A DNA stretch of 42,749 nucleotides from the IMG/VR virus record IMGVR_UViG_3300030328_002965, positions 1 through 42,749 of that record; one strand, 5' to 3'. Both the position numbers and the translations under genes were made by a program. The notes under the pieces were generated by a model. It was not told the origin of the DNA. It saw only the letters and a program-made list of their open reading frames with translations, and made no database searches. Of the stretch, positions 10,251-42,749 are shown in pieces (positions within the stretch are counted from its first letter, which is position 1; the number at the start of each line of letters is the position of its first letter). Origin of the DNA: a virus.

Positions 10251-10251
10251 A

Positions 10252-15201: not shown

Positions 15202-15960
15202 TTAAAATTGTATATTATCGTTATCAGAACTTACATCAGCAGTAGCTGTTCCTTTTCTAACTGAGTCAGAAAGACTTTTAGCTGCTTGATATAAATCGAC
15301 ATCTCCTACCGGTTCGGGGTTTCCTATTTTATAAATAAACCACGAGCCATCTGAGTTTGTTTTCTCAATGGTAGTTACTGGCCACTTATAATAAAAAGTA
15401 GGTGGCTCGATTAACTTTCCATTAACATTCTCTCGTTGTAACTTCATTCTAGTTACCCAATTACGAGATACTGTTAATAAAGAAGATGACATTGACATTA
15501 CTGCTGGCTCATATGAACCATCTTTACCTATTACCATAACGTAATGTTGAGCAGTATCGACTAATTGATTACCATTTTCTAGTAAAAAACGTCTGCCATT
15601 TTCTTCTTTTTTTGCCTGCGGTTTATTAGAGGCGTTATATATTGTCACTAAACCACCTCCACTTTCTCGTGGTACCCATTCGATAAATAATTTCTCAAAT
15701 TCGCACGGTACTACATAGAAAGTATCTTTATATAGAGTATTTGAAACAGTATTAAATACCATTCCTTCATCTGCGTTCTCTATATATTTATCGTCTTTCT
15801 TTTTTCGTTGAGGACTACCACTTTGTATGATAGCTAACCTCGGTATCGTCATATCGTCAGAATGAACTTTCTCAAGTCCTCTTCCAACGTCAGCGAGTAA
15901 ATCCTCTGCAGGAATACTAAGTGCTGAGTTTGCTTTCTTCGCTACTTGTGTATCAGCCAT
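15202..15960 (-). CDS. Candidate phage ssDNA-binding protein
   Basis: 252 residues. A beta-rich core (TFYVVPCEFEKLFIEWVPRE, HYVMVIG, FYYKWPVTTI) contains many aromatic and basic residues, and the protein ends in a flexible acidic tail finishing ...SSDNDNIQF. An acidic tail ending in Phe is characteristic of phage SSBs such as T7 gp2.5 (established). The gene lies immediately upstream of the primase in the same message. There is no sequence match I can name, so the SSB role is an inference from tail, size and position. ATG at 15960 has AAAGGAGAATAAA upstream. Confidence 0.55.
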   Translation of the reverse strand: MADTQVAKKANSALSIPAEDLLADVGRGLEKVHSDDMTIPRLAIIQSGSPQRKKKDDKYIENADEGMVFNTVSNTLYKDTFYVVPCEFEKLFIEWVPRESGGGLVTIYNASNKPQAKKEENGRRFLLENGNQLVDTAQHYVMVIGKDGSYEPAVMSMSSSLLTVSRNWVTRMKLQRENVNGKLIEPPTFYYKWPVTTIEKTNSDGSWFIYKIGNPEPVGDVDLYQAAKSLSDSVRKGTATADVSSDNDNIQF

Positions 15961-27610: not shown

Positions 27611-28510
27611 TTATAATTTCATTCCAGCCATCATTGCGCCAGCTATTTGAGCAAATGGTGAAGTTCCACCAATTACATTTTCTTGCATACCAGTAGATGA
27701 CTGTCCATAACTTCTTATAGGTGCAGCCCCTAAAATTTGAGATAAGAAACCAAGTTGACCTCTTCCAAATCCTTGCTTTTCTATAAAGTCTTTATATAAT
27801 TCATTTAAATTTGCTTGTTCTAAAGCTTGTTCTTGCCCGCCATATTGCATAGCAGCTTGTGCTTCATTCATCGCTGTTCCTTGTTTTTGTAATTGAAGAG
27901 CTGGTATTGCTTGTGCTAATGCACCAAGATTACCCATTCTTGTATTTCTATCTTGTTGAAATGCTCCTCTTCCTGATTCAAAACCAGAAGCCATTAATTG
28001 AGCAGTTAAATCTCCTGCTTGTTTCATCTCTCCTTGTTGTGCTAAAGCATTTTCAATTGCTGCTCTTGATCCACCATAAGATCCTCCAGATATTTGATTA
28101 GCTGCTCGTGCTCCTCTTTGTTGTCCTGCTATTTCTCCTAAACTTGCCATTGACCTATCAACTACATTTTGAATATATGGATTCATATATTGATCTACAG
28201 TTGATCCTTCAAATCTTTCTTCACCAACAGCTTTCATTTGATCAAGTATTCCTCTTGCTTCTTTAGTAGCTCCTGATTTTTCAAACGCTCCTAAATTACC
28301 ATAAGCAACTCCCATAGCATCTTTTTGACCTTTAGTAAAATCAGCTATTCTTTTTCCACTATATGATTCGTAAGGTCTTTGTGATTCAGCTTCAGCTCTT
28401 TTAAATAATGCTTCTTGTGCTTTTTTAAAATATTCTGGTATTTCGTATTTAGTTTCTCCCGAAGAATTTGACGGTACAACTGATGATTGTGGTTTAAATA
28501 TACTTCCCAT
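27611..28510 (-). CDS. Virion/DNA-transfer-like protein, 299 residues
   Basis: Helical and rich in Ala, Gln and Gly (GEIAGQQRGARAANQISGGS; AMNEAQAAMQYGGQEQALEQ), with the recurrent podovirus pattern YESYSGKRIADFTKGQ near residue 50 and MNPYIQNVVD near 107. Similar Ala/Gln-rich proteins in marine podoviruses are annotated as internal virion or DNA-transfer proteins. The C-terminus IAGAMMAGMKL is weakly hydrophobic. It is probably the smallest of three ejection proteins. Confidence 0.55.
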   Translation of the reverse strand: MGSIFKPQSSVVPSNSSGETKYEIPEYFKKAQEALFKRAEAESQRPYESYSGKRIADFTKGQKDAMGVAYGNLGAFEKSGATKEARGILDQMKAVGEERFEGSTVDQYMNPYIQNVVDRSMASLGEIAGQQRGARAANQISGGSYGGSRAAIENALAQQGEMKQAGDLTAQLMASGFESGRGAFQQDRNTRMGNLGALAQAIPALQLQKQGTAMNEAQAAMQYGGQEQALEQANLNELYKDFIEKQGFGRGQLGFLSQILGAAPIRSYGQSSTGMQENVIGGTSPFAQIAGAMMAGMKL

Positions 28511-28512
28511 TA

Positions 28513-28647
28513 TTACTTTTTCCTTATTCTTCTTTTATCTAATGCACCATATCTTATATTTTTCAAAGCTTGTTTTAAAAGGTCTAAATTAGGTAAATTT
28601 ATTAATTTAGGTTTTACTTTAGTTGTTATTTTTGATCTATCTGCCAT
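28513..28647 (-). CDS. 44-residue basic protein
   Basis: ATG at 28647 shares TAATG with the acetyltransferase stop and follows GAGGGAATAT, a usable ribosome binding site. The product begins MADRSKITTKVKPKLINLPN and ends DKRRIRKK; 14 of 44 residues are Lys or Arg. It ends two bases before the start of the 299-residue virion gene. It may be a small DNA-binding or virion accessory protein; no family is recognised. Confidence 0.55.
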   Translation of the reverse strand: MADRSKITTKVKPKLINLPNLDLLKQALKNIRYGALDKRRIRKK

Positions 28648-29090
28648 TATATTCCCTCTGAATAAGTTCCACCTAGATAATTAAGATTTTGGCGTGTAAC
28701 CCATTGATGTTTTCTCTCCATATCTTTTCCTTGCATAATCTCTAAAATCATTGGTGTATTTCTTCCTTTTGCATACTCTCTTGCAAAATCCAATAAACTT
28801 TTAGCGATATTAGGATTTCTTTTCGTTTCATCTACAAAAAACCATAACGTTCTATAAAAAGCTTTATCGGTATACCAAGTATCACAATTTGCCATTGCTA
28901 TACTTCCAATAATCTTATCGTCTTTCTCTGCTACTACCACAAAGTGTTGACGTATGTATTCTAATATATTTTCACTGGCTTTGCTATTGTTTGTTTGCCC
29001 AAAGTTAAGTTTTGTCTCAATTAACCATTTCTTTAAAAGTTCTCGTATTTGATGTGTATCGGTATCTTTAGCTATTCTTAATTTAATCAT
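28647..29090 (-). CDS. GNAT-family N-acetyltransferase
   Basis: 147 residues. The fold runs from IKLRIAKDTDTHQIRELLKK through VVVAEKDDKIIGSIAM (beta-strands of the GNAT core) to FFVDETKRNPNIAKSLLDFA, where the acetyl-CoA loop would lie; the usual R/Q-x-x-G-x-G/A is degenerate (KRNPNIAKSL). GNAT genes between tail and internal virion genes are common in marine podoviruses. The substrate is unknown. It overlaps the 84-residue gene by 8 bases. Confidence 0.75.
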   Translation of the reverse strand: MIKLRIAKDTDTHQIRELLKKWLIETKLNFGQTNNSKASENILEYIRQHFVVVAEKDDKIIGSIAMANCDTWYTDKAFYRTLWFFVDETKRNPNIAKSLLDFAREYAKGRNTPMILEIMQGKDMERKHQWVTRQNLNYLGGTYSEGI

Positions 29091-29337
29091 CTAATAATCC
29101 TTTAGTTTTTAATACATCTATTAGGGTTCCAAGTACATTAATAACGTCAGCTAAACTTGCTGTAGAGCCATTTAATGTCTTTGTTTCAGTAATATTCGAA
29201 GTTGAATATCCAATAGCTGCAGCTTGATTTATTTCAGTCAAATATCTTTCTAACGTACTACTTGTAACATTTATAGTCGTTACTAAATCTTGACCTTCTA
29301 TTGCGATAGGTAAACTCGGAGGTGGTTTAAAGCTCAT
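29083..29337 (-). CDS. Small structural-type protein, 84 residues
   Basis: The sequence starts MSFKPPPSLPIAIEGQDLVT, passes through a Thr/Ser-rich middle (NVTSSTLERYLTEINQAAAI) and ends with a helix (LADVINVLGTLIDVLKTKGL). No motif is known. It links by ATGA to the tail nozzle-like gene, so it is likely co-translated with it as a small virion or assembly protein. Confidence 0.55.
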   Translation of the reverse strand: MSFKPPPSLPIAIEGQDLVTTINVTSSTLERYLTEINQAAAIGYSTSNITETKTLNGSTASLADVINVLGTLIDVLKTKGLLDD

Positions 29338-31184
29338 CTTCTACCATCTTGTTTTGTATCCATTCGTAAAGTGCCAAATCTCCAGTTATCACTAGTAGAA
29401 GTATCGTTAAATATTTTAAGAGAAACTTGTCGTCCACGTGCTCTCATATTCACTAATCTAGTAGAAGAAGTAACTGATAAGTTACTCGTAGTCGTCTGAG
29501 AATCCGCAGGAAAATCACGAGATTGAACAACCATCTTTACAGTGCCAGATAAATTTTTAAAGTCAGGAATTATCCCTCTAATAAAAGTAAAAGTATCTCC
29601 ATCTGCAATATCAGCATCACCACTCGTTAAAGTTGATTCTAAAATAGCACCATCATCTGATGTCCCTGATTCATGGTCATAGAGATATGAACGTCCAGGG
29701 CTTGCGCCATAAACTACCGTCTGCGTTGCTGCAGTAGATGTAGAGTCATAATTTAACGCCATAGGTTGTTGAAAAACTGAATTATCTATCCATGCAGTTC
29801 TATTTAGATTACCTATATACCACACATTTTCTACATAATTATAAATAACATATCTATCTATATCGCTACTATTAGCAGAACAATAATACCAAACTACTTC
29901 ATTAAATTGATTATTTTCTCCCGCATATACTTGTGAGTATTGTGTTCTATTAATATCATTAAATACATATTGTTTTACACTACATGGTATTTCTTGTATT
30001 GCTCCCGAGTAAGTCATAAATCTACCATCGGCCATCCAATAAGCTTTATCATTAACTACTACCGCTGCGTTTAAAGCAACGAGTCCACAATCTGTTCCTA
30101 ATAATCTAAATCCAAAAGTATATGGAGGACCAATAAATTGCATTGAATGTAATGCAGTATCAGTCCATACTAATATTTCACCACGTGTAGATTGAGCTGC
30201 GATAATTCTACTTCCCTCTCCTAATCGTTGAGAGCCTGAAGTATTAGCAACTGCTGGAGTCCAATTAGTAAAATCTTCTTGACTTGACCAACGAATAAAC
30301 ATTTTATCTTGATCAGTAGTTCCAATTAAAGTAGTTCCAAAACAAATAGCGTGTCTATCAGGAGTAGAAATTAATCCTGTTACAGATTTAGTAGGAGCAT
30401 TCGTTACTATCGTTAAAGGTGTACTTACTCCTGTAGTAACATCCCATTTATATAATCCTCCATTTTTTTGCCATGCAAATAAATCTTCACCGGCATTATC
30501 AAAATGCCATATTCCTGCGTCAAGAATAACGTTAGAAGTTGAACGAGCTGTACCCCAAGTTGAAGTTCCCCAAGTATTAGTTCCCCAACCATATCCATAA
30601 GTTTGAGTTGCGGGCTCTACTTCTATTTGAAAAGCAAAAGTTGCAGTTCCATTTGCAGTTATACCAGCTGCTGTTTCTGTTGCAGGCATAGTAATATTAA
30701 AGTTATCTGAATCTATAACAGATTGTATTTCGAATTGATTTTCAAAATTAGTTACAGTAAAAGAAGTAGTACCAGCTAAACTTGATACTGCAGAAATTAT
30801 AACAACTTCTCCTGCTACTGATCCATGATTAACGACTGTACATTTAACTGTCGCTGATCCATTAGTACTTGTAAAACAATTAGTTTGACTTGCTTTAGTT
30901 GTTCTTATCGGCGTAATATCATAAAAGTTATCGCCTTCAAATAAATAAACTTTTCTATTAGTTCCTATTGCGGCATAACGAGTACCACTTAAATCAAACC
31001 AACTAAATAAACCTCTCGCTACTCCTAATAAAGCATAGGTAGAAGCTTTAACCCAACCCCCTATTTTTTGAGGAAGTCCATATCTAAAACGAATTTTATC
31101 ACCGTCAACCCATTGACCTTCAGCACCATACTCTGTCGTTTCTTTATTAATTCCTCCAATAAATTTTACATTAGTATATGCCAT
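29334..31184 (-). CDS. Tail hub/nozzle protein, P22 gp10-like stabilisation type
   Basis: 616 residues, beta-rich throughout. The N-terminus carries VKFIGGINKETTEYGAEGQW, IRFRYGLPQKIGGW and AIGTNRKVYLFEGDNFYDI, a pattern I associate with the phage stabilisation protein family (P22 gp10) in marine podoviruses. Repeating WD/kelch-like strands follow (HFDNAGEDLFAWQKNGGLYK; GLISTPDRHAICFG). It would close the portal and connect to fibres. Assignment by pattern memory; T7 gp12-like nozzle is the functional alternative. Confidence 0.65.
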   Translation of the reverse strand: MAYTNVKFIGGINKETTEYGAEGQWVDGDKIRFRYGLPQKIGGWVKASTYALLGVARGLFSWFDLSGTRYAAIGTNRKVYLFEGDNFYDITPIRTTKASQTNCFTSTNGSATVKCTVVNHGSVAGEVVIISAVSSLAGTTSFTVTNFENQFEIQSVIDSDNFNITMPATETAAGITANGTATFAFQIEVEPATQTYGYGWGTNTWGTSTWGTARSTSNVILDAGIWHFDNAGEDLFAWQKNGGLYKWDVTTGVSTPLTIVTNAPTKSVTGLISTPDRHAICFGTTLIGTTDQDKMFIRWSSQEDFTNWTPAVANTSGSQRLGEGSRIIAAQSTRGEILVWTDTALHSMQFIGPPYTFGFRLLGTDCGLVALNAAVVVNDKAYWMADGRFMTYSGAIQEIPCSVKQYVFNDINRTQYSQVYAGENNQFNEVVWYYCSANSSDIDRYVIYNYVENVWYIGNLNRTAWIDNSVFQQPMALNYDSTSTAATQTVVYGASPGRSYLYDHESGTSDDGAILESTLTSGDADIADGDTFTFIRGIIPDFKNLSGTVKMVVQSRDFPADSQTTTSNLSVTSSTRLVNMRARGRQVSLKIFNDTSTSDNWRFGTLRMDTKQDGRR

Positions 31185-32092
31185 TAAGTAATCCTCATAA
31201 ATCTATAATTAATTTCACCAGCACCACCAGTATTACCATTATTTTCTTTTCCACCGCCACCAGCACCTGCTCCTCTTAATCCCGCTGAACCTTGACCACC
31301 TGATCCGCCACCTGATCCGCCAGATACATTTCCATTATAAGAAGCACCACCAGTTGCACCACCAATACTACAGTTATCACTTCCACAATTAGGAGCAGTA
31401 CTTGCTCCTCCACTTGGTAATCCTTCTGCTCCAACACCTCCTTGATTAAATGCTCCAGCAGGACCACTATTTAAAGTTGTGATATTTATTCCATCAGTAG
31501 TAGTGCCTGTAGATAAAGAAGTTGAAATTGATGCAGTTCCAGCTGATCCAGAAGTTTGTGTAGCTAAAGGACCTTGAACATATCCACCAGAATATGATGA
31601 TCCTCCACCACCTCCTAAAGTAAATAAAGTTCCAGTAATTCCTCCAACAATTGAAGTATTTCCTCCATCACCCGCTGAAGCAGTATAATTAAAGCTAGAA
31701 TTAGACCCTGCGGATCCACCACTTCCTGTAGCAATCGTTAATGTTTCTCCACCAGTAAGACTAAATACTTTATCAGAAACATAACCACCAGAGCCACCTC
31801 CACGACCACCTTGTTCTCCACCACCTTTATCATAACCGAGACCATTCATTGATCCACCGCCACCACCTACAGCGTATTGTACATGAATAGCATTAGCTCC
31901 CGCAGGAACAGCTATACTTCCAGTAGCTGTAGAATAAGCTGTTGTGGTAAAAAGAGTAAAGACTTCTCTCCAAGTTCCACTGTCATTTATATAAACATTA
32001 TCAATAGTTTTATTAGTAAATGATGTTCCATCATGTACATATATATTATTTATTTCTCTCCAAGTTCCACTGTCATTAACGTATGTTGTCAT
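31184..32092 (-). CDS. Glycine-rich tail adhesin
   Basis: 302 residues. The N-terminus has a 30-residue repeat with the core NDSGTWRE (near residues 6 and 36). From about residue 75 onward the protein is a run of Gly-rich motifs (VGGGGGSMNG, KGGGEQGGRGGGSGGY, GGGGGSSYSGGYVQG, GGSGGGSGGQGSAG), as in polyglycine-sandwich adhesins such as phage S16 gp38 or glycine-rich fibre tips. Likely at the fibre tip, contacting the host surface. It ends next to the nozzle gene with TAATG. Confidence 0.65.
   Translation of the reverse strand: MTTYVNDSGTWREINNIYVHDGTSFTNKTIDNVYINDSGTWREVFTLFTTTAYSTATGSIAVPAGANAIHVQYAVGGGGGSMNGLGYDKGGGEQGGRGGGSGGYVSDKVFSLTGGETLTIATGSGGSAGSNSSFNYTASAGDGGNTSIVGGITGTLFTLGGGGGSSYSGGYVQGPLATQTSGSAGTASISTSLSTGTTTDGINITTLNSGPAGAFNQGGVGAEGLPSGGASTAPNCGSDNCSIGGATGGASYNGNVSGGSGGGSGGQGSAGLRGAGAGGGGKENNGNTGGAGEINYRFMRIT
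31964..32077. repeat. Two exact 24-base direct repeats, 90-base period
   Basis: The 24-base string TTCTCTCCAAGTTCCACTGT plus CATT occurs at 31964-31987 and again at 32054-32077 within the adhesin's 5' region, encoding the duplicated NDSGTWRE unit. The period of 90 bases equals 30 residues. This exactness in an otherwise diverged coding repeat suggests recent duplication or ongoing recombination. Confidence 0.85.
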
Positions 32093-32097
32093 AGTTA

Positions 32098-32880
32098 TTA
32101 AGAATATTTATACCAAATATCACCATTGCTTCCACCACTTGGACCAGAAGAACTTAATGTTCTTGTTCCAAATGCATTTTTACCCGCATTATCTACTTTA
32201 GCAAAAGCTATTTGATCATCATCTAAAGTTAAAGTTTTCCCTGATACATCAACATTTGAAGTCGTAGTATGAGCTGAAATATTTCCAGTAACATTAACAT
32301 TGGTAGTAACATTAGCATTTGCATTAAAAATAGCATCTTCAGTTACAGTAAGTTTTTTACTCACAGTTGCATTAGCTGACATAGCAACATTTCCTACTAA
32401 TGTAGATACTCCATCCACTTGTAAAGTTCCTTTAGATAATATTGAATTTGTTGCAGCAAATAAATCTTTTACTCTATCTCCATCTTGAACATAAGCAATA
32501 GTATGTGCTCCTTGAGTTAAAGTTATATTATTAGCAGCGTGCCCTGTTGGAGCTACTTGTAATGTATAAGCTCCTGAAGTATTATTAAATAATATATACT
32601 CTCTTTCTATTGCTGGTAAAAAAACATAAATATTACCTGATAATGCTCCATTCATATCAATAATTGCATTACCAGCTTCATTTGTTGTTTCTACATCAGG
32701 GTCTCTATTAGCTGTAGTTAAAGTAACATTAGCACTACCAGATACTGATTTACTTAAATAACCTCCTATTGATGCGTCTATTACTTTTAAATTATCGTTT
32801 GTGTTATTTCCCCAAGTACCAGAATTGGCACCGGCTTCCATAACTTCCATTTTTAGTCTTGCGGTGTATGTTGATGCCAT
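32098..32880 (-). CDS. Tail fibre protein
   Basis: 260 residues. The N-terminus MASTYTARLKMEVMEAGANS with GTWGNNTNDNLKVIDASIGG is the phage fibre attachment pattern found in many marine phages. The middle is a beta region with the Asn/Thr/Val-rich repeat zone (DAIFNANANVTTNVNVTGNI) typical of trimeric fibre shafts. The end SGGSNGDIWYKYS matches the GDIWYK tail-fibre terminus seen in many phages. Structural, probably trimeric. Confidence 0.75.
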   Translation of the reverse strand: MASTYTARLKMEVMEAGANSGTWGNNTNDNLKVIDASIGGYLSKSVSGSANVTLTTANRDPDVETTNEAGNAIIDMNGALSGNIYVFLPAIEREYILFNNTSGAYTLQVAPTGHAANNITLTQGAHTIAYVQDGDRVKDLFAATNSILSKGTLQVDGVSTLVGNVAMSANATVSKKLTVTEDAIFNANANVTTNVNVTGNISAHTTTSNVDVSGKTLTLDDDQIAFAKVDNAGKNAFGTRTLSSSGPSGGSNGDIWYKYS

Positions 32881-32891
32881 TTTATTTATCC

Positions 32892-33662
32892 TTAATTTAT
32901 TTTAGTCCAAGTATTTGTCGTTGCAGCGTTAACATTACTCCATGTATTACCGCTGTTTGCGTTCACATTCGTCCAAGTATTAGTTGCACCTGGTACAACT
33001 GGATCCCAGAAAATTAATGAACTAACTCGTATATTAGCAGAATTTCCAGAAATTGACAGTATTTGATCAGTATTTATTGAAACATTACCAGTTAAAGGTT
33101 CTATACTTTGACCTTCAGCGATAAGATACATACTAGTAGACATATCAACATCACCTACATTAATAGCAATATTTCTTCCTGTAGGAACAAGGGTTACTCC
33201 TCCTTTAACTCTTAATACTCCACCATTAGTAGTAGTTAATTGTTCTCCGGTAACTGGAATAAGAACTCCTATTCCCGCAGTTGCATCACCTTCATTAATA
33301 GTAATTGGTAAACTAGGACTAACTATTTTTTGATCAGTGTTTATTAAGAAAGTTTGAGAAGCAGATATATTCATGTTCTCTCCTTGAAGAACAATAGCAT
33401 GATCTGTATTTGCAGTTATATTACCTTCACTAATAGTTAATTCTTGACCATCAGGAATAATAAGTGCTCCGCCATTAACATAAGCGAGATTATTAGCTCT
33501 AATAGTTAATTCTTGACCATCAGCAGTTAATATAGTACCTGCTTTTGGAATAAGATTTCCATCACTTATAGTTAATTCTTGACCACCAACTAAAAATTCT
33601 ATTGACTGAGACCCTGTCGCTGAAAACGGTGCTTCAGCAAAAGCAGTAGAGCCAAATAACAT
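32892..33662 (-). CDS. Repeat-rich fibre protein, beta-solenoid-like
   Basis: 256 residues. About nine units of roughly 20-24 residues carry the core GQELTIS-x-GN (for example GGQELTISDGNL, DGQELTIRANNL, DGQELTISEGNI, QGENMNISASQT, EGQSIEPLTGNV), suggesting a beta-solenoid or beta-prism shaft. The C-terminus has three short repeats NTWTNVN, NTWSNVN and NTWTKIN. Not recognised as a named family. It lies between the tail fibre and the triplicated adhesin cassettes. Confidence 0.6.
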   Translation of the reverse strand: MLFGSTAFAEAPFSATGSQSIEFLVGGQELTISDGNLIPKAGTILTADGQELTIRANNLAYVNGGALIIPDGQELTISEGNITANTDHAIVLQGENMNISASQTFLINTDQKIVSPSLPITINEGDATAGIGVLIPVTGEQLTTTNGGVLRVKGGVTLVPTGRNIAINVGDVDMSTSMYLIAEGQSIEPLTGNVSINTDQILSISGNSANIRVSSLIFWDPVVPGATNTWTNVNANSGNTWSNVNAATTNTWTKIN

Positions 33663-33665
33663 ATT

Positions 33666-34760
33666 TTATCTTGCTGTTACTGGTACACCTGATGAAGAAA
33701 CAAAGGGATGTTCTGCCCAAGCCCAATATACAAAATCGTCACCATCTGTATTAGCTCCACCAGTATCTCTTACAGTAAAACCATTGGAACAAAAATCATA
33801 ACTATTTTGTGAAAATTCTACTGCGTTTTCATTTGCGTTTAAACCTAGATTAACTACATTTCTTGGATTTCTTTGGTTGTCATTCATTCTCCAGTTTCCT
33901 GAAGCACTAATATTTTTATTAAAAACAAAAGCAGGTTTAAATCCAGTGTAACAAAAAGGACCGTTTGCACTTCCATTACCAGTATATCTGCCAAAAGCCG
34001 AATATCCTTTTACTTCTGCCCAACAAAACATTAAATAAGCATTACCGTTACCATTTACTTGAGCGTCATTACCTAATGTAATTACACTAGAAGTTGGTTG
34101 TGTACTATTAAAAAAACCTGCATATTTACCATCATTATTACTAGCATCACTGTTTAATCTTAATGTGCTAGTAGAATCATGATGATGCCACACAGCCCAA
34201 TCATCTGCTGTATTTCTTACTTTTATAAATATAGCTGCAGGTTTTACGCCAAGACCATGGCCTATGGTTGCTCCTGCACTACCATTTCCTGTGTATAAAC
34301 CCATTGTAAACTTACTTGTTGAATTTGTAGATGCATTGATTGTTGTACTGCCATCAGTATTATTAGAAGTAGAGTTAGTTCCATTCCAAGTCCAACCCAC
34401 ATAATTATATGAAACTCCTTGGTTTACATAATTAGCACTACTTGAACCGGCAACAACAGAAAAACTTGTAGCAGTTGTACCACCAACATATCCATTAGCA
34501 GGTGTATTATGAGCACTTGTATCGCCTTCTTGAACGTTAGAGTTAGGAACTAATTCTTTATTACTTCCAAATCCTTCTGCTTCATTCCATAAATAATGTG
34601 ATCTGCCAGAAAAATTTCTTGCTTTAACCCAAACCATACCAGGTCTAAATGAAGTTGTAATATTTCTTGAAAAACCAGCGCCATCTGCAGGTACCCAATT
34701 ACCTGTCCATAATGCAGTTTCAAATTGTGATGATCCTTTATTAATTGTTGTATATGCCAT
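33666..34760 (-). CDS. Receptor-binding-type protein, DUF7483-like, cassette copy 1
   Basis: 364 residues. It starts MAYTTINKGSSQFETALWTG and repeats the family pattern twice: MVWVKARNF...HYLWNEAEGF, then TIGHGLGVKPAAIFIKVRN...WAVWHH, and finally FCYTGFKPAFVFNKNISASG...YWAWAEHPFVSS. The same order occurs in the paralogues at 36918-37982 and 40272-41324. Phage proteins of this type (I recall them as DUF7483) are beta-rich virion adhesins. This copy is the most diverged, with an extra section after ELVPNSN. Confidence 0.7.
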   Translation of the reverse strand: MAYTTINKGSSQFETALWTGNWVPADGAGFSRNITTSFRPGMVWVKARNFSGRSHYLWNEAEGFGSNKELVPNSNVQEGDTSAHNTPANGYVGGTTATSFSVVAGSSSANYVNQGVSYNYVGWTWNGTNSTSNNTDGSTTINASTNSTSKFTMGLYTGNGSAGATIGHGLGVKPAAIFIKVRNTADDWAVWHHHDSTSTLRLNSDASNNDGKYAGFFNSTQPTSSVITLGNDAQVNGNGNAYLMFCWAEVKGYSAFGRYTGNGSANGPFCYTGFKPAFVFNKNISASGNWRMNDNQRNPRNVVNLGLNANENAVEFSQNSYDFCSNGFTVRDTGGANTDGDDFVYWAWAEHPFVSSSGVPVTAR

Positions 34761-34766
34761 AATATT

Positions 34767-36089
34767 TTATCCGTATTGTCCTAAATTCTTACTACATAAC
34801 GCATAGTACCCTGTTGGTACAGTGTATTCGAAACTTCCATGACCATTAGCATCTGATTGAGCTGCGTCAGCAAGAGTAAAAGGAGGATTTCCAAAATTCC
34901 ATTCTCCAGTTCCTGCTTGTGAAGAAGAAGCATATGTACAAAAAACATAAGGATCATTTAATGTTTCAGTTAAATTTTGAGAAACAACTTCACTTCCATT
35001 TTTATAAAATTTTACATTTTTTGTGCCACTTGCTAAATCTAAAGCTATTCCTACAATATCATTTTGTGCTAAAGTAAAACCTTGGCTACCTGAATTACTT
35101 CCATTAACATAAAGATTACCTTCTCTATTTATTCCATAACTATCTGTAACTTGACCGGGATAATTATTAACATTACGTTGTGCTACATCAGTATAACCTT
35201 GCGCTATTCCTATCATTGGATTGTAAGTATTTGTATTTGTAATTTTCATTTCACAATACCATTTTCCATCATACACCCCAAATGAACTAACTGAATTGTA
35301 ATAACCACTAAAGACAAGTGCTCCTTTAGACATAGTGACACCTGTTCCTGCAACAGGATTCATAGTAGAAAAATTATTTGCAGGTCCATCTTTTGTATTA
35401 GCATTAGTTCCTAAATTAGTTGTGGCAAAATGATTAGTATTACCAGAACTATCTGCACCAAAACCACTCGCATCAGCAGAAGCTCCTGTTCCTATAAAGT
35501 CTAATTTAAAACCATTAGTTCCATATGTAACAGAAGGAGTAGAATTAGGTATCCAAATACCATCAGCATTTGTTGAACCAAACGTACTAGCTGCATATTG
35601 TGTTGCATTAGCAAAAATAAATTGAGATAAATAACCACCAAATCCTAAACTATTACCTGTTTTAGCTCCTATAACATGTTGTTGATCTTTACTAAATTGA
35701 GTATCTACGTTTTGATTCCATGCTCCAACTGTACTAGTTTGTAAAGTACCATTTACATAAATTTTTAATCCATTACTTCCAGAAGCTTCAGTTGTATCAC
35801 AAGCTACTACAATATGATACCAAGCAGACGGATCTCTAAAATACATAGAAGTGTAAACATTAAATCCATTATTAGCACTTGCACTGACGGCATTAAAACA
35901 TTGTAATACATAATCATCTCCACTTCCTCTTAAAGAAATTCCAGTTTGATTATCTGCATCAGTTTGTGCATGCATTATATATTGATCATTTCCTGTTACT
36001 ATGATTGATTTTTTTACCCAAAAAGAAACGGTCCATACATCTAAATTTCCACTTGAACCAAATGTTTTTGTTAAATAAGTCTGTGCCAT
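34767..36089 (-). CDS. LamG + SPRY adhesin, cassette copy 1
   Basis: 440 residues. The N-terminal LamG/concanavalin-like half shows WTVSFWVKKS, RDPSAWYHIVVACDTTE and LKIYVNGTLQ. A linker (SSGNTNHFATTNLGTNANTK, NNFSTMNP) leads to a SPRY-like half (GKWYCEMKITN, GINREGNLYVNGS, DIVGIALDLASGTKNVKFYK). The end SFEYTVPTGYYALCSKNL is shared with both paralogues. Such proteins bind carbohydrate or protein surfaces; here it is likely a fibre tip or decoration. TAATG joins it to the TIG gene above. Confidence 0.75.
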   Translation of the reverse strand: MAQTYLTKTFGSSGNLDVWTVSFWVKKSIIVTGNDQYIMHAQTDADNQTGISLRGSGDDYVLQCFNAVSASANNGFNVYTSMYFRDPSAWYHIVVACDTTEASGSNGLKIYVNGTLQTSTVGAWNQNVDTQFSKDQQHVIGAKTGNSLGFGGYLSQFIFANATQYAASTFGSTNADGIWIPNSTPSVTYGTNGFKLDFIGTGASADASGFGADSSGNTNHFATTNLGTNANTKDGPANNFSTMNPVAGTGVTMSKGALVFSGYYNSVSSFGVYDGKWYCEMKITNTNTYNPMIGIAQGYTDVAQRNVNNYPGQVTDSYGINREGNLYVNGSNSGSQGFTLAQNDIVGIALDLASGTKNVKFYKNGSEVVSQNLTETLNDPYVFCTYASSSQAGTGEWNFGNPPFTLADAAQSDANGHGSFEYTVPTGYYALCSKNLGQYG

Positions 36090-36916
36090 TATGTATCAAA
36101 CCTTCCTGAATTATCTAATTCATAACTAGATGTTAGTGTAAAGTTTCTATCGCTTGTTTGTCCTTGCGCATCTGTAGCTCTTAAAGTAAAACTATAAGTA
36201 GTTGCAGATGTAGCACTTCCACCAAAATCACTAGTAGTTATAACACCTGTAGATGAATTTAGCGAGCAATTTGCTTGTGATGCGTTAGTTAAAACATTAG
36301 TAGTTTCTGAATAAACAATAGTATCTCCAGTAGCAGCTACAGTAGCAACTGTTCCTGAGAAATTTCCTGCAATAGTTCCAAGTGACCCTGCGCCAGTAGT
36401 CCATGCAGGTGCGTCTGATACTGTAAGTAAAGCACTACTTGATCGTACTGCGTTACCATCATTATTTTCCACTCTAATATAATACGAGCCATCTACTGGT
36501 AAAGTGAAGTTAGCGGTAATTGATGTTGCGCTTGTAAAAGTAACTGAATTAGCTGGAGTGATTGCTCCAGTTGAAGATATAGCATCAACATAGGGAACTG
36601 ATATATAATTAGTTCCAGTAATAACTACATCGGCTGCTGTATTTTCAATAACAGTTGGTAAAATACTTGAAATAGTAGGTTTAGTTTCTGCGGGTAAATT
36701 AGTTAAATTAGCTCCTGATACAGCTGGTAAAGTAGCAGGGAATCGTGCGTCAGGAACAGTTCCTGATCCAAGATTTGTTGCGTTAAGCGCAGTTAAACTT
36801 GCGCCTGAACCCGATAATGTAGCACCAGCAGTTATAGTAATTGTATCACCGGATTCACCAATTGTAATTGTTGACCCTGTATATTTTTTTATCGTGTTTA
36901 CTTTTACTTCTGACAT
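36089..36916 (-). CDS. TIG/Ig-repeat fibre protein, cassette copy 1
   Basis: 275 residues. The N-terminal fibre segment (MSEVKVNTIKKYTGSTITIG; GTVPDARFPATLPAVSGANL) is shared with paralogue 2. Residues about 80-165 form an IPT/TIG-like domain (ETKPTISSILPTVIENTAAD; YYIRVENNDGNAVRSSSALL) and the C-terminal quarter a cadherin-like Ig repeat (TYSFTLRATDAQGQTSDRNF). It should be an elongated surface-binding virion protein. This copy has one PDARFPATLPA unit; paralogue 2 has two. Confidence 0.7.
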   Translation of the reverse strand: MSEVKVNTIKKYTGSTITIGESGDTITITAGATLSGSGASLTALNATNLGSGTVPDARFPATLPAVSGANLTNLPAETKPTISSILPTVIENTAADVVITGTNYISVPYVDAISSTGAITPANSVTFTSATSITANFTLPVDGSYYIRVENNDGNAVRSSSALLTVSDAPAWTTGAGSLGTIAGNFSGTVATVAATGDTIVYSETTNVLTNASQANCSLNSSTGVITTSDFGGSATSATTYSFTLRATDAQGQTSDRNFTLTSSYELDNSGRFDT

Positions 36917-36917
36917 T

Positions 36918-37982
36918 TTATTTTGTTCCTACCCTAGTTGTAGCGCAAACAGTGTTTGATGCTACAAGGGGTTGTTGAGCGAATGCTAGATAAATATAAT
37001 CCGAACCATCTCCACCACCAAAACCACCTGATGTGCTTCTTATTTTAAAACCAGTAGAAGTAATATCTAAAATATCAGCGTCAGTTCCTTCACCAGAATT
37101 TGTATTAGCTCTTAAATCTTGGTTGTTTGAATTATACCCTTCTCTTTTAATGTCAAATATTCCCCAGTTAGCACCCGAGTTATCTGATGATTTTTTCATC
37201 ATTATATATGCGGGTTTAAAACCACAATAAATAAAAGCCCCATCAGTAGCATCTCCAGTTCCTTTAAAAATTGAACATCTACTAAATCCTTTTATATTAG
37301 CAAAACAATAAGCTACCATAGTACCGCCATTTGTTTTAGAGTTTGTTCCTACAGAAAAAACACTAGATGTAGGAGAAGTATCTTGATACCAAGAACTTGC
37401 TGTATTAAAAGCATCTGTTAAATTTAAATACATACCTCCACTATTACCTAAAATAGAATGATAAGTAGTCCAGTTTGAAGTGTCTGTATAATTTTTAAAA
37501 AAAATACAATCAGGAGCCACACCTAAACCATGTCCAACAGTTGCATTTGATGTTGTTCCAGTCCATTTAACTATACTAAATCCAGGAGTTGTATTAGTTT
37601 GAACAGTAGAAGTAATAGACCCATCACTGTTAGACGCAGTAGTACCTCCATTACATTTCCATTGCCATGCAGCATACGTATTACCATTATCATTATAGTT
37701 TCCGTTATCTCCTAAAGAAAAACCATCTGAATTAAAAGCTGTGGATCCATTTGTATCATTATACTGAGTTGTATCTTCATTAGATTCGATAGTGTAAGTA
37801 ACTCCCCTCGTACTATCCGTTAGTTTATGATCTTCTCCTGCTCCTGTTCTACCTTTTACCCAAAGAAAGTCAGGCTGTAAATTTGAATTACCATCATTGG
37901 TAATGGATTGTGTACTCCCATTTCCTGTATAAAGAGCTGTTTGAAAATATGCTGAGGGATCGTTTATTGTTGTAAAGGCCAT
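36918..37982 (-). CDS. Receptor-binding-type protein, DUF7483-like, cassette copy 2
   Basis: 354 residues. Same plan as copies 1 and 3: MAFTTINDPSAYFQTALYTG, then DFLWVKGRTGAGEDHKLTD, AWQWKCNGGTTASNSDGSIT, VGHGLGVAPDCIFFKN, and FIYCGFKPAYIMMKKSSD...YIYLAFAQQPLVAS. It is closer to copy 3 (shared ANGGTTSSNSDGSVT-type segment) than to copy 1. Three bases separate it from the LamG+SPRY copy 2. Structural adhesin by analogy; not an enzyme. Confidence 0.7.
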   Translation of the reverse strand: MAFTTINDPSAYFQTALYTGNGSTQSITNDGNSNLQPDFLWVKGRTGAGEDHKLTDSTRGVTYTIESNEDTTQYNDTNGSTAFNSDGFSLGDNGNYNDNGNTYAAWQWKCNGGTTASNSDGSITSTVQTNTTPGFSIVKWTGTTSNATVGHGLGVAPDCIFFKNYTDTSNWTTYHSILGNSGGMYLNLTDAFNTASSWYQDTSPTSSVFSVGTNSKTNGGTMVAYCFANIKGFSRCSIFKGTGDATDGAFIYCGFKPAYIMMKKSSDNSGANWGIFDIKREGYNSNNQDLRANTNSGEGTDADILDITSTGFKIRSTSGGFGGGDGSDYIYLAFAQQPLVASNTVCATTRVGTK

Positions 37983-37985
37983 ATC

Positions 37986-39362
37986 TTATCCATAAGTGTT
38001 AATGTTTCTTGTGCAAATTGCATAATACCCTGATGGTACTGTATATTTAAATTTACCATATCCGTTAGCGTCTGCATAACCATTGCCGCTGTTTTCTGTA
38101 ATACTAACAATAGGATTTCCAAAATTCCAATCTGTTCTTCCAGATGTAGCTGTAGTATCATCAAAATGTATAGGAGAATAAAAATAATTGCTTAATAAAG
38201 GAGCGTGATTACCTGCATCACTCGGGCTCGTAGCTGGATTTGGTGTTGGATCTCCTTGCCATGTTCCATTTTTTCCAAAGTATGCTCTTTTATTATCCAT
38301 ATCTAAAGAACACATTATAGTATCTCCACTTGTATAACTATCTATTCCTGTAGTTTTAGTTACTTGTGATCCTTCTTTTCTCCATCTAATTTCTCCACTT
38401 GGAGTATATTGTATTATATTGTAAGGAGCCGCAGCAAAAGTAGCACTAATAGGATCATCTGTTGTAAGTAAACCCATACTTCCTGTATTAGCTTCTACTC
38501 TCATTTCAAAATACCATTTACCTTTCATAACTCCTAGACATCCTCTTGCTCTTTGTTCTGCATTTGTTGATGTACCTGCATCTACTCTAAGCCCACTTTT
38601 AGTTACTGTGACATTGTCTGTTCCAACATCAAGTCGGTTCATAGTAGAAAAATTATTACTTGGGGTATCCATAGCTTGAAAATTATTTCCAGGGGGATTT
38701 GTGATTGTAAAAGTATTAGTATTTCCGCTTGAATCAGTTCCCATAGCCCCTGCGTTTTCAAATTGTAAATAAGAACCATTATTGCCATATGTAAGACCAC
38801 TTATAGTTTTTGGTTTCCATATTCCTGTCGTAGAATCAGTTTCTCCAAAATCACTGGCTGCATATTGGGTTCCATCAATAAATACAAATTCAGCTAAATA
38901 CCCATTCATTCCTCCATACCATGAACCATTATTATCTGCTCCTGCCCATCTTTGTACTCCTCCTGATTCAGCCCAACCCCAATCTTCATTTAAGGAAGGT
39001 TCATCAGGGGTGGCATTAAATATCGTTTGAAGTTGTCCATTAAGATAGAATTTTATTCTATTATCAGCACTTGCTTGACTTGTATCAATTGCCATAACTA
39101 CATGTGTCCATGCAGCAGGATCTCTTATTTGTTCCGCTGCTCTAGCATCAACGGATCCAAACCAATTTGTATAACCAAAGCATCCATTTCCATTACGGCT
39201 GATTCCCATCCAATTACTATTACTAGGACTTCCTTTAAATCCATTCCAAAAATATCTAGTGCTACCATCTCCAGCGCCGGAATCTTTAACCCAAAAACTA
39301 ATTGTACATTTTTTTGTACTTGTTGGAGTACCGTTTGTTCTATCTATCTGTGTATCTGCCAT
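37986..39362 (-). CDS. LamG + SPRY adhesin, cassette copy 2
   Basis: 458 residues, the longest of the three. LamG half: CTISFWVKDSG, IRDPAAWTHVVMAIDTSQAS, IKFYLNGQLQTIF, YLAEFVFIDGTQYAASDFGE. SPRY half: GKWYFEMRVEANTGS, SGEIRWRKEGSQVTKTTGI, GDTIMCSLDMDNKRAYFGKN. The ending KFKYTVPSGYYAICTRNINT is the shared tail. It is the best intact reference for judging the damaged copy 3. TAATG coupling with TIG copy 2 shows the cassette is translated as a unit. Confidence 0.75.
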   Translation of the reverse strand: MADTQIDRTNGTPTSTKKCTISFWVKDSGAGDGSTRYFWNGFKGSPSNSNWMGISRNGNGCFGYTNWFGSVDARAAEQIRDPAAWTHVVMAIDTSQASADNRIKFYLNGQLQTIFNATPDEPSLNEDWGWAESGGVQRWAGADNNGSWYGGMNGYLAEFVFIDGTQYAASDFGETDSTTGIWKPKTISGLTYGNNGSYLQFENAGAMGTDSSGNTNTFTITNPPGNNFQAMDTPSNNFSTMNRLDVGTDNVTVTKSGLRVDAGTSTNAEQRARGCLGVMKGKWYFEMRVEANTGSMGLLTTDDPISATFAAAPYNIIQYTPSGEIRWRKEGSQVTKTTGIDSYTSGDTIMCSLDMDNKRAYFGKNGTWQGDPTPNPATSPSDAGNHAPLLSNYFYSPIHFDDTTATSGRTDWNFGNPIVSITENSGNGYADANGYGKFKYTVPSGYYAICTRNINTYG

Positions 39363-40270
39363 TACTGTTCTAACCTCGCTGAGTTGTTTATACCAAGAGT
39401 TATTGCTATTGAAAAGGCTCTATCTGCAGTTTGACCTTGAGCATCTGTTGCTGTTATCGTAAAGTTATAAGTTGTAGGTTGAGTAGCTCCTGATTCTGTT
39501 CCTGTAATAGTTGCATTTGTTGCTGCAGTGTTCAATGTTAAACCTCCTGGTAACGCTCCAGAAGTTCTAGCAAAAGATGTTGCGTCTGTACAGGTAATTG
39601 TAATAGTTCCAACACTAGCTCCCGCTTCAAAAGTTCCAAGACTACCTGCCCCTGTTACCCATGCAGGAACATCTGAAACTGTAAGAATAGCTGTTCCACT
39701 ACGAACTGCATTACCATCATTGTTTTCTACTCTAAGAAAATAAGTACCATCTACTGCTAATGTAAAAGTAGCTACAATAGAAGTAGCTCCTGAAAAAGCA
39801 ACTGAATCTGCTTGAATAATTGCTCCTGTGCTAGAATTAATAGCATCAACATAAGGAGTATTAACAAAATTAGTTCCTGTTATAGTAATTGCTGTTTGTG
39901 CATTTGTAACAACTGAAGGAGTAATACTACTAATTGTTGGTTTAGTTTCTGCTGGTAAATTAGTTAAATTAGCTCCTGAAATTGCAGGAAGTGTTGCTGG
40001 AAATCTAGCATCTGGTAATGTACCAGAAGTTAATTGAGTTGCATTAAGTGCAGTTAAATTAAGTCCCGATGCTGCAGGCAATGTAGCTGGAAAACGAGCA
40101 TCTGGAACTGTTCCCGAGGTAAGTTGTGTTGCATTAAGTGAAGTTAAACTTGCTCCTGATCCTGACCATGTAACTCCAGCTGAAATTGTAATAGTATCAC
40201 CTGAACTTCCAAAAGTAATGGTAGTCCCTGATTGAGGTTGAATAGAATTTACTTTAAGAATAGATGTCAT
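39362..40270 (-). CDS. TIG/Ig-repeat fibre protein, cassette copy 2
   Basis: 302 residues. After MTSILKVNSIQPQSGTTITF come two 30-residue repeats containing LNATQLTSGT-x-PDARFPAT. An IPT/TIG-like domain follows (ETKPTISSITPSVVTNAQTA; YFLRVENNDGNAVRSGTAIL), then a He_PIG-like Ig domain near the C-terminus (ALPGGLTLNTAATNATITGT; YNFTITATDAQGQTADRAFS). It likely forms a rod that presents the LamG+SPRY or DUF7483-like partner. The C-terminus agrees closely with the partial copy 3. Confidence 0.72.
   Translation of the reverse strand: MTSILKVNSIQPQSGTTITFGSSGDTITISAGVTWSGSGASLTSLNATQLTSGTVPDARFPATLPAASGLNLTALNATQLTSGTLPDARFPATLPAISGANLTNLPAETKPTISSITPSVVTNAQTAITITGTNFVNTPYVDAINSSTGAIIQADSVAFSGATSIVATFTLAVDGTYFLRVENNDGNAVRSGTAILTVSDVPAWVTGAGSLGTFEAGASVGTITITCTDATSFARTSGALPGGLTLNTAATNATITGTESGATQPTTYNFTITATDAQGQTADRAFSIAITLGINNSARLEQ
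39965..40144. repeat. Two 90-base coding repeats in TIG copy 2
   Basis: Residues 43-72 and 73-102 of the TIG copy 2 protein are a tandem duplication with the core LNATQLTSGT-(V/L)-PDARFPATLPA and only a few substitutions. Copy 1 carries a single unit. This is direct evidence of in-frame repeat expansion in the shaft region. Confidence 0.85.
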
Positions 40271-40271
40271 T

Positions 40272-41324
40272 TTATTTCGCCAATGCTATTACGTTATTTG
40301 TCGCTACTAGAGGATTCTCTGCGAAAGCTATGTAAACATATTTCTCGCCACTTGCATTATATGCTGTTCCACTTTGTCTAACTTTAAATCCATTACTTAC
40401 AAAATCAAAAGCATCTGAATCAGATGAAACATTATTTCCATTTGCTCGTAATCTTTTATTTACTACATTAGATGGGTTTCGAGCATTATCATTTAAATTC
40501 CAGTTTCCAGTTGCGTCTATTGGTTTTGTTAATATCCAAGCTGGTTTAAAACCAGTGTAAACAAAAGGGCCATCTGTATCAGCATTACCAGAGTAAACTC
40601 CTATTTTACTGTAACCTTTTATTGATCTAAAACAATAAGACACTAATGTTTCACCATTTGCATAGTTATTATTATCATCACCTCCACGGCCCATAGTCAT
40701 TACAGTTGAAGTAGGTGCAGGAGAAGGATACGAATTATTAGTTGTTAGTGCTGCAGTTCCATCTAATTGTAATGCCTTACCTGCTCCACCAACACTACCA
40801 GCAGACATATAAACTCTCCAATCGTAAGAAACACTTCTTGTTTTAGTTAAAATCATGTCAGGAGCTGCTCCTAAACCATGCCCTACTGTAATATCTCCAC
40901 TGCCTGTAGCTGTATATGTAACAATACTAAATCCCGCAGTTGTGTTAGCTTGTACGGTTGAAGTAACTGAACCATCGCTGTTTGAAGAAGTAGTGCCCCC
41001 ATTAGCTTTCCAACTCCAAGAAATCATATTATTATCTCCTTGACCACTTTCATTAATAGCTTGTCCGGTTGGTTCAAAACTTGTTGCATTAAAAGTAATG
41101 CTATTACCACTCGTGCTTTCAGCAGAATTACTATTAGATGCTATATATTTTGTGCCACCTCTTGTTGTATCAAAAAGAAGGTGATCATAAGTTTGAGTTC
41201 TACTTTTTAACCATAAAAAATCTGATTTAAAACCTACTGTTACTGTAGGCACACTAGCGTGAGTTCCTGTGTATAATACAGCTTTAAAATAATCTTCGGG
41301 TTTATTAATTGTTGTGTATGCCAT
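40272..41324 (-). CDS. Receptor-binding-type protein, DUF7483-like, cassette copy 3
   Basis: 350 residues. MAYTTINKPEDYFKAVLYTG, DFLWLKSRTQTYDHLLFDTT, WSWKANGGTTSSNSDGSVTS, DITVGHGLGAAPDMILTKTR, PFVYTGFKPAWILTKPIDAT and YVYIAFAENPLVATN follow the same order as copies 1 and 2. It lies one base from TIG copy 2 and three bases from the damaged LamG+SPRY copy 3. Intact reading frame. Structural adhesin by family resemblance. Confidence 0.72.
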   Translation of the reverse strand: MAYTTINKPEDYFKAVLYTGTHASVPTVTVGFKSDFLWLKSRTQTYDHLLFDTTRGGTKYIASNSNSAESTSGNSITFNATSFEPTGQAINESGQGDNNMISWSWKANGGTTSSNSDGSVTSTVQANTTAGFSIVTYTATGSGDITVGHGLGAAPDMILTKTRSVSYDWRVYMSAGSVGGAGKALQLDGTAALTTNNSYPSPAPTSTVMTMGRGGDDNNNYANGETLVSYCFRSIKGYSKIGVYSGNADTDGPFVYTGFKPAWILTKPIDATGNWNLNDNARNPSNVVNKRLRANGNNVSSDSDAFDFVSNGFKVRQSGTAYNASGEKYVYIAFAENPLVATNNVIALAK

Positions 41325-41327
41325 ATT

Positions 41328-42320
41328 CTATCCGTAAGTATTTAAGTTTTTAGTGCATAAAGCGTAGTACCCGGCTGGTACATCGTATTCAAAAATTCCA
41401 TAACCTGCGTCATCAGACTGTGGTGTAGAAATTGAATAAGTAGGATTACCAAAATTCATTTCAAAAACTGATCCTCCAGCATTATCCCAATCTCCTATTG
41501 CTGGAAAATAATTTCCTAAACCTGTAGTAGCAACATCAACTATTGTAAGAGCCCCAGTTCCTGTAGAACCTGATGTAGGTACTCCACTATTTTGCCATAC
41601 TCCATTTTTAGAAAAATATAATTTATTATTATCTAAATCCATTGCAACTCCAATAATATCTCCTGAAGTATAAGTAGATCCATAAGCAGTTCCAGATCCA
41701 GAAGTATATTTATTTCCATCTTCTGTGTAAGCCCAATCATTTGCAGATGCTCCTAACTCATAAGATTGTCCTGTAGATTGAGTAGAAGTTATACCAATCA
41801 TAAAAGGATCGGTTCCGCTTACAAAAGATATTGCTTTAACTTCCCAATACCATTTTCCTGTCGATACTCCTATTGTAGCAGCTCGATAAGAATAACCAAC
41901 AGCAACACTTGAAAATTTTAAACTTCCTTTTGTTATAGTTCCTTGAGCATAAGTAGCATTATCTACAGGATTAATAGTGGCAAAATTATTACTTGGAGTA
42001 TCTATAACTTGATCATTTGTTCCTGCACTATTAACAGTAAAAGTATTACTATTTCCGCTTGAGTCGGTTCCCATAGCACCTGCATTAGCAAATTTTAAAT
42101 AAAAACCATTTGTTCCATAACTTACCCCACTTACATTTTTTGGTTTCCATGATCCTGTAGTAGAGTCTGTTTGACCAAAAGTGGTTGGAGCGTAAGTTTG
42201 ATTTGCACACATGTGTATTTCCGCCATATAACATGAACCATCTCCATTAGCAGGTATCTCTTGGTTTGAGGTATTATTAATCCATCCAGAGTATTTAATT
42301 GTAAAACAAAATGATACCAT
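41328..42320 (-). CDS. LamG + SPRY adhesin copy 3, 3' part after a frameshift
   Basis: This frame continues the LamG protein: GWINNTSNQEIPANGDGSCY, AEIHMCANQTYAPTTFGQTD, then the SPRY half (TGKWYWEVKAISFVSG, GDIIGVAMDLDNNKLYFSKN) and the shared end FEYDVPAGYYALCTKNLNTY. The first residues (MVSFCFTIKYS) have no counterpart and arise only because the frame is open. The junction with the upstream part is near 42290-42300. It may be a broken gene, an assembly error at a repeat, or a separately made SPRY protein; no ribosome binding site supports the last. Confidence 0.6.
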   Translation of the reverse strand: MVSFCFTIKYSGWINNTSNQEIPANGDGSCYMAEIHMCANQTYAPTTFGQTDSTTGSWKPKNVSGVSYGTNGFYLKFANAGAMGTDSSGNSNTFTVNSAGTNDQVIDTPSNNFATINPVDNATYAQGTITKGSLKFSSVAVGYSYRAATIGVSTGKWYWEVKAISFVSGTDPFMIGITSTQSTGQSYELGASANDWAYTEDGNKYTSGSGTAYGSTYTSGDIIGVAMDLDNNKLYFSKNGVWQNSGVPTSGSTGTGALTIVDVATTGLGNYFPAIGDWDNAGGSVFEMNFGNPTYSISTPQSDDAGYGIFEYDVPAGYYALCTKNLNTYG

Positions 42321-42562
42321 GAAGTAGGATCTCTATAAACAGCAGTAGTTTCAAGCATAAAATCTTGTGGAGCATCAAATAATCTAAATCTAATTACTCC
42401 ACTTGTATTTATTCTTACATAAGTATTACTTGAACCTGATGCATATATAAAATGTTGTTCTGCTGAACCAGGTGTATTTCCAAATTTAAACCAACAACTG
42501 TAAGTAAATTTTCTTCTTTCAGCTGCTACTAATGTACTTGGTGTTCTGCTTAAATATGTCAT
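42131..42562 (-). CDS. LamG + SPRY adhesin copy 3, 5' part, truncated
   Basis: ATG at 42562 shares TAATG with the TIG gene above. MTYLSRTPSTLVAAERRKFT, YSCWFKFGN and YRDPTSWYHFVLQLNT match the LamG start of copies 1 and 2, but after about residue 90 the frame gives unrelated sequence (IPQTKRYLLMEMVHV) until its stop. Compared with copy 2, about 40 residues of the LamG domain are missing at the junction, and the frame changes by one base (-1 relative to this frame). No slippery heptamer is seen there. Confidence 0.6.
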   Translation of the reverse strand: MTYLSRTPSTLVAAERRKFTYSCWFKFGNTPGSAEQHFIYASGSSNTYVRINTSGVIRFRLFDAPQDFMLETTAVYRDPTSWYHFVLQLNTLDGLIIPQTKRYLLMEMVHVIWRKYTCVQIKLTLQPLLVKQTLLQDHGNQKM

Positions 42563-42749
42563 TACTCAAACCTCATTGCATTACCTATACCAAGAGTTAT
42601 GTCTATTGAAAAGGCTCTATCTGCTGTTTGAGCCTCAGCATCTGTCGCACGAATAGTAAAGTTATATGTTGTATCTCCAGTTGCTCCTGATTCGGTTCCT
42701 GTAATAGCTCCTGTAGAAGTATTTAAAGATAAACCGCCAGGTAAAGAAC
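42562..42749 (-). CDS. TIG/Ig-repeat fibre protein, cassette copy 3, C-terminal part only
   Basis: The reading frame enters from the right edge and ends at the TAA of TAATG. Its visible residues (SLPGGLSLNTSTGAITGTES, ATGDTTYNFTIRATDAEAQT, ADRAFSIDITLGIGNAMRFE) match the He_PIG-like C-terminus of copy 2. This shows that the three-gene cassette continues upstream of the window. Confidence 0.75.
   Translation of the reverse strand, partial: SLPGGLSLNTSTGAITGTESGATGDTTYNFTIRATDAEAQTADRAFSIDITLGIGNAMRFE

Follow-up and report, generated by a model that had tools for sequence, protein, structure and literature searches.

The window analyzed here, the whole of a 42,749-base IMG/VR record (classed as linear, GC 33%), carries three tandem copies of a three-gene cassette at its right end, and we consider it likely that this locus is a slot for exchangeable tail-fiber tips of a marine phage that probably infects SAR11. 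Each cassette consists of a TIG/Ig gene (T), a LamG+SPRY gene (L) and a DUF7483 gene (D), and would give rise to one receptor-binding tip. T would be the proximal adaptor, with a shared N-terminal docking module and two Ig domains, L a lectin-like middle piece and D the outermost cap; with its three repeats in one chain, D probably caps a trimeric fiber as a single pseudo-threefold molecule. Three position-specific T types would mark three distinct attachment sites. Phages would trade L and D with one another through homologous recombination at conserved patches, namely the T genes, the linker between LamG and SPRY, and the L/D junction, so that up to three tips, recombined semi-independently, could track changing host surfaces.

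All genes of the array are on the minus strand and are read from the right edge leftwards. The features are as follows.

42563–42749, minus strand: T_C, the 3' end (~62 codons) of the third TIG/Ig gene (match to the T HMM; read from the sequence)
41328–42562, minus strand: L_C, the third LamG+SPRY gene, broken (Laminin_G_3 and SPRY matches)
40272–41324, minus strand: D_C, DUF7483 protein of 350 aa with three tandem ~110-aa repeats (PF24299, E 1.5e-102)
39362–40270, minus strand: T_B, TIG/Ig protein of 302 aa (He_PIG, E 1.6e-9)
37986–39362, minus strand: L_B, LamG+SPRY protein of 458 aa (domain and PHROG matches)
36918–37982, minus strand: D_B, DUF7483 protein of 354 aa (PF24299, E 6.8e-101)
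36089–36916, minus strand: T_A, TIG/Ig protein of 275 aa (AF2 model, Foldseek matches to Ig/cadherin domains)
34767–36089, minus strand: L_A, 440-aa protein with SPRY and a LamG-like N-terminal half (SPRY, E 5.4e-8; phrog_27411, E 2.7e-67)
35355–35563, minus strand: island of conserved DNA within L, located between LamG and SPRY (79% to L270, a related locus)
34697–34904, minus strand: island of conserved DNA spanning the L/D junction (75.6% to L270)
33666–34760, minus strand: D_A, DUF7483 protein of 364 aa (PF24299, E 9.5e-79)
32892–33662, minus strand: X, the DUF6799-like downstream border gene

Gene order, together with matches to PF24299, phrog_27411 and Ig-type families, bears out the three same-order, same-orientation cassettes proposed in a preliminary description of this DNA. 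The repeats have a period of ~3.2–3.3 kb at the DNA level. Amino acid identity among the window copies is 41–46% for D and 37–44% for L, and the longest identical DNA run between cassettes is 26 nt. An assembly artifact, in which a single cassette had been multiplied, had been named as a possible refutation; it is ruled out by this divergence (37–46% identity), which marks the copies as old, and by the bounded three-cassette arrays in other contigs, of which 12 complete examples are described below. Neighboring genes in the window overlap by 1 base at the closest and are at most 6 bases apart, and the median gap in the 12 homologous complete arrays is ~1 base. Given these near-zero gaps, the T-L-D array is one operon. 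Promoter- or terminator-like sites inside the array are no commoner than in shuffled sequences. The X gene is internally repetitive; the repeats surround a 'GGQELTI / DGQELTI' motif.

Two genes at the right edge are incomplete. T_C is truncated by the contig end. L_C is split over two overlapping ORFs (42131–42562 and 41328–42320); in tblastn comparisons, homologous L proteins switch from frame +1 to frame +3 at about 42233–42299, and 17–52 residues are missing relative to the homologs, which amounts to a frameshift plus a deletion. The break lies 450–515 nt from the contig end; this close to the edge, L_C may be a pseudogene or may reflect a sequencing or assembly error.

The window appears to be roughly two thirds of a ~60-kb genome. 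A 64-kb sister contig, G002, is 93% identical to it over much of the core and has terminase-, portal- and capsid-like genes upstream of the slot (named from sequence and gene order alone), which are missing from the window. The host is probably SAR11, judging from the pelagiphage relatives and the GC content. Elsewhere in the window, positions 9582–12689 hold methyltransferase and GDP-mannose 4,6-dehydratase/epimerase genes with a helicase gene between them, which may reflect phage-encoded sugar modification, and a 2OG-Fe(II) oxygenase gene lies near the left end (1259–1963).

Profiles built from the window genes were used to annotate ~340 loci; the slot loci among them were detected because they resemble genes of the window itself and are mostly contig fragments with flanks of at most 10 kb. 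The cassettes sit between a conserved upstream gene U (~150 aa) and the downstream gene X. Exactly three T-L-D cassettes are present in each of 12 complete, non-redundant slots (L086, L124, L125, L155, L172, L178, L278, L282, L286, L296, L300 and L309). Two cassettes plus another unit or units were found in 5 complete slots (L113, L118, L121, L240 and L270), the extra units including C1q/TNF-like fibers or a 472-aa TIG protein and, in L118, a T fragment. No slot with four cassettes occurs among the annotated loci. Three cassettes per slot is thus a strong pattern in these sequences, short of proof. U is fused to T in L325 and L328, and phages with such a fusion have one T-L-D set each. A further locus, L298, shows three T-L-D cassettes with ORFs broken in many places, and is probably low-quality sequence.

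In L270, the closest relative whose slot is complete, two cassettes are found together with the 472-aa unit. Its third place is filled differently, so closely related phages differ in what this place contains. According to the preliminary description, the array continues past the right edge of the window. The third T gene is indeed cut there, but the complete slots of relatives predict that the array ends with the third cassette. A search of the viral contig collection with the exact 34-nt pattern of the right edge returned no overlapping contig that extends the array.

The three genes differ in how they relate to array position. On trees of the 12 complete arrays and the window, T changes position 6 times (shuffled mean 18.4, minimum 13), L 12 times (mean 18.5, minimum 14) and D 18 times (mean 18.9, 121 of 300 shuffles being as low), where the shuffles ignore relatedness among contigs and the trees were built by a quick method. 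T is bound to array position, L partly and D not detectably. D types are found at different array positions in different phages, which implies movement between positions over longer times.

A similar division is seen in sequence divergence. In 75 cassette pairs, T identity reaches 70% or more; the T median there is 78%, whereas L and D stand at only 43% and 44%. These two values are close to the medians of 37% and 44% for L and D in pairs whose T falls below 70%. Contig L004, the nearest relative, is 97% identical to the window in flanking DNA, and 95% and 85% identical at the amino acid level in T_A and T_B, respectively. The same comparison gives 39% for both L_A and D_A, and a range of 32–39% over L_A, D_A, L_B and D_B. 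In-place drift is not credible as a cause, and L and D must have been replaced. These comparisons indicate that the L and D alleles, lying among conserved T genes, are replaced wholesale between phages. At the DNA level, L270 resembles the window most in the T genes; shorter patches of similarity lie between LamG and SPRY and at the L/D junction, and most gene bodies around the junction island give no DNA alignment to L270. The T genes, the LamG/SPRY linker and the L/D junction are therefore plausible crossover sites.

Larger exchanges also occur. In G002 and in a second contig, G007, homology to the window is lost at ~33,095, inside X, and DUF7483 is absent; this break, along with the other fibers in G002, indicates exchange of the whole slot. 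Instead of the T-L-D array, the G002 slot (L089 14478–20000, L090 1–1539) has a series of short fiber genes (C1q-like and S74-chaperone) that alternate with genes for proteins of ~110 aa, which show matches to the tail assembly chaperone and XkdW families.

Exchange between copies within one genome is another matter. Paralogs from one contig resemble each other no more closely than cassettes taken from separate contigs do, which rules out a recent tandem duplication of L and D. Since the copies in one contig are not homogenized, recombination between them is unsupported on short time scales. The earlier proposal of host-range change by swapping thus holds up for exchange between phages, but not between the copies within one genome, where no gene-conversion signal was found. 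Switching by a DGR or a serine invertase was considered as well and rejected, as neither a reverse transcriptase (PF00078) nor a serine recombinase (PF00239) has a match in the 42.7-kb record, itself incomplete. No inverted repeats of at least 30 nt were found in window positions 28000–42749. In L110 (HTVC200P, MH598801.1), 58-nt inverted repeats (6434–6491 and 7967–8024, 95% complementary) each run from just upstream of a D gene into its beginning; a LamG gene lies between them, and one DUF7483 gene, gp036, is on the opposite strand. This looks like either an invertible segment that would change which D follows an L or a mis-assembly.

The T profile matches residues 597–830, the last 234, of the HTVC022P tail fiber gp40 (E 7.6e-85), whose N-terminus is a T7 tail fiber domain (PF03906, E 1.2e-30) and which is directly followed by gp41 (L) and gp42 (D). 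In many pelagiphages, the similarity to T falls in genes annotated as tail fiber. T thus corresponds to the C-terminal end of T7-type tail fibers, which supports its assignment to a receptor-binding fiber tip. T_A and T_B of the window are free proteins rather than part of a long tail fiber with a virion anchor. They match Ig-type families, with TIG/cadherin-like Ig domains. The AF2 model of T_A (pLDDT 87.0; AF2 input alignments were built without phage-collection rows) shows an extended, low-confidence N-terminal module of ~75 aa, shared among T proteins, and two Ig/cadherin-like domains, for which Foldseek returned Ig/cadherin matches. Among solved structures, only weak sequence matches to T were found, to collagenase domains. 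The N-terminal ~40 aa of T recur in the C1q-like fibers of the G002 slot (E 2.8e-11) and in 146-aa proteins of other slots, as expected of a common docking module.

The three L genes match phrog_27411 (E 2.7e-67, 8.1e-62 and 6.3e-57), and no solved structure is related to L by sequence. The C-terminus of L carries a conserved GYYALCTKN motif, and the N-terminus of D reads MAYTTIN. Proteins of cyanophages and roseophages combine the L and D domains in a single chain (phrog_19943, virion structural protein). Read recruitment in pelagiphage Skadi-1 delimited a hypervariable region at 13,646–15,713, comprising a lectin-domain gene and an uncharacterized gene (PMC10504331). By coordinates, this region is L (14,408–15,730) plus most of D (13,353–14,408), and the T-ended tail fiber starts at 15,783. 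The receptor-binding role put forward in the preliminary description is therefore well supported, by the homology of T to the C-terminus of T7-type fibers and by the correspondence of L and D to the hypervariable Skadi genes.

All three D proteins belong to PF24299 (DUF7483), scoring 265, 338 and 344 bits against a Pfam gathering cut-off of 27 bits and covering profile positions 1/2–330 of 330. D consists of three homologous ~110-aa repeats in one chain (hhalign E 1.2e-15, 5e-14 and 7.9e-11; controls >0.1). Because of these repeats, a pseudo-threefold single chain that would suit the capping of a trimeric fiber is probable. The AF2 model of D_C is all-beta (pLDDT 87.7, pTM 0.90). No solved structure is related to D by sequence, Foldseek gave no match to the model below E 0.001, and the best row of a comparison with solved structures (VIA-align) reached only Z 5.5 (81 residues aligned). 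A longer alignment, to the single-chain APRIL-BAFF-BAFF trimer 4zch, was rejected as evidence for the D fold, the match being too weak (Z 4.2, 222 residues, rmsd 5.2). Fusions of DUF7483 with LamG are found as well in long contigs assigned to Patescibacteria and other bacteria (L358, L362, L369 and others), with individual proteins reaching ~3,600 aa; one of these contigs is an 859-kb Kaiserbacteria chromosome. In view of these fusions, DUF7483 is not exclusively a phage tip.

Several other explanations of the locus can be envisaged. The three units might form a single branched complex similar to that of Ackermannviridae, in which T_C carries T_B and T_B carries T_A, making one receptor-binding organ. 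In its favor, T types tied to position, with their common N-terminal module, would suit defined contacts between partners, and three units do recur across slots. However, phages with a single T-L-D set work without partners. Moreover, T consists of an extended region of ~75 aa and two Ig domains, and no XD/gp10-like branching domain was seen in Pfam/PHROG scans or in the T model, although absence by profile is weak evidence. We regard this arrangement as unlikely. The recurrence of exactly three cassettes in 12 complete slots would also match the stoichiometry of a trimeric fiber, if the three paralogous T (and L) chains, one each, made up a single asymmetric trimer. Such an obligate heterotrimer is hard to reconcile with single-set phages, with slots in which two cassettes are accompanied by unrelated C1q-like or TIG-472 units, and with a D that already has three repeats in one chain, and we consider it highly improbable.

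We give similarly little credence to a reservoir, in which one cassette is used in the virion and the others are silent stores for within-genome gene conversion. The broken L_C of the window would agree with silent copies, but the cassettes are intact in 12 other arrays and form one operon with ~1-nt gaps, the copies within a contig are not homogenized, and no serine invertase or reverse transcriptase was found in the record. It is likewise very unlikely that L and D are fast-varying virion parts of another kind, such as decoration or assembly factors. The classification of phrog_19943 as a generic virion structural protein, in the head and packaging category, would favor it; the lectin-like and SPRY domains, the place directly behind fiber T segments and the hypervariability of exactly L and D in Skadi argue for adhesins. 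The evidence as a whole favors the slot for exchangeable fiber tips. A narrower version of this reading is possible, and we put it forward tentatively: the slot may hold a fixed set of three non-equivalent fiber positions, each defined by its T adaptor, with D as a universal, single-chain pseudo-trimeric cap suited to every position and a shared pool of L/D alleles. If true, the fixed capacity of the slot and the universal D would amount to a combinatorial display of three tips, put together by recombination from that pool.

SAR11 phages and other marine phages must follow the surfaces of their hosts, and their receptor-binding parts are mostly annotated as 'hypothetical protein' or DUF7483. 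Our comparison provides a likely proximal-to-distal order for three poorly described families and separates genes that are fixed from those that are traded. It predicts three tip types per virion, D proteins that are interchangeable between positions, and one D per trimer. A gene set labeled hypothetical in many isolate genomes thereby becomes a testable host-range module. The gene families and the T-L-D order are already known from isolate pelagiphages, as are two free cassettes in HTVC103P and HTVC104P. We found no description in the open-access literature of the bounded three-cassette slot, of a tip encoded by three separate genes, the adaptor being fixed and the outer parts interchangeable, or of the DUF7483 triple repeat; nor did we find, in the same literature, a paper naming the DUF7483 domain.

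Variable host-recognition genes are familiar from marine phages. In metaviromic islands of nearly identical marine phages, host-recognition genes (tail fiber, lectin-like and C1q-like) are the most frequent identifiable genes of the variable regions, according to the parts of that study considered here, in which T-L-D cassettes and position-specific T types are not described (PMC3909814). The TSP1-4 genes of Ackermannviridae are receptor-binding genes in tandem whose proximal parts are conserved and whose distal parts vary; recombination has been proposed to take place in the conserved parts (PMC11414711). The window shares with them tandem candidate receptor-binding genes and the conserved proximal and variable distal parts, but Ackermannviridae tailspikes are single chains with XD/TD domains, whereas the tip in the window would be split over three genes.

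The closest parallels in gene content come from pelagiphages. HTVC022P (gp40–42) and Skadi-1 (45–47) have the T, L and D families in the same order as the window, but only one set per genome and with T fused to a long fiber, whereas the window has a free T of ~275 aa and three sets. The Pelagibacter phage isolates HTVC103P and HTVC104P have two free T-L-D cassettes in the same orientation, with genes annotated as hypothetical; these cassettes are ~1.6 kb apart with two other genes between them, in contrast to the three contiguous ones of the window. The fused proteins of phrog_19943 (S-B68, C72C1 and CRP-406) join LamG-SPRY and DUF7483 in the order of the window, sometimes repeatedly, but in one chain and with no T gene detected before each unit. 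In T-even phages, a separate fast-changing adhesin, gp38, is encoded behind the fiber gene for gp37 and caps the trimeric fiber, with one copy of gp38 per phage. Without claiming any relation in sequence, we note that gp38 resembles the cap proposed here for D.
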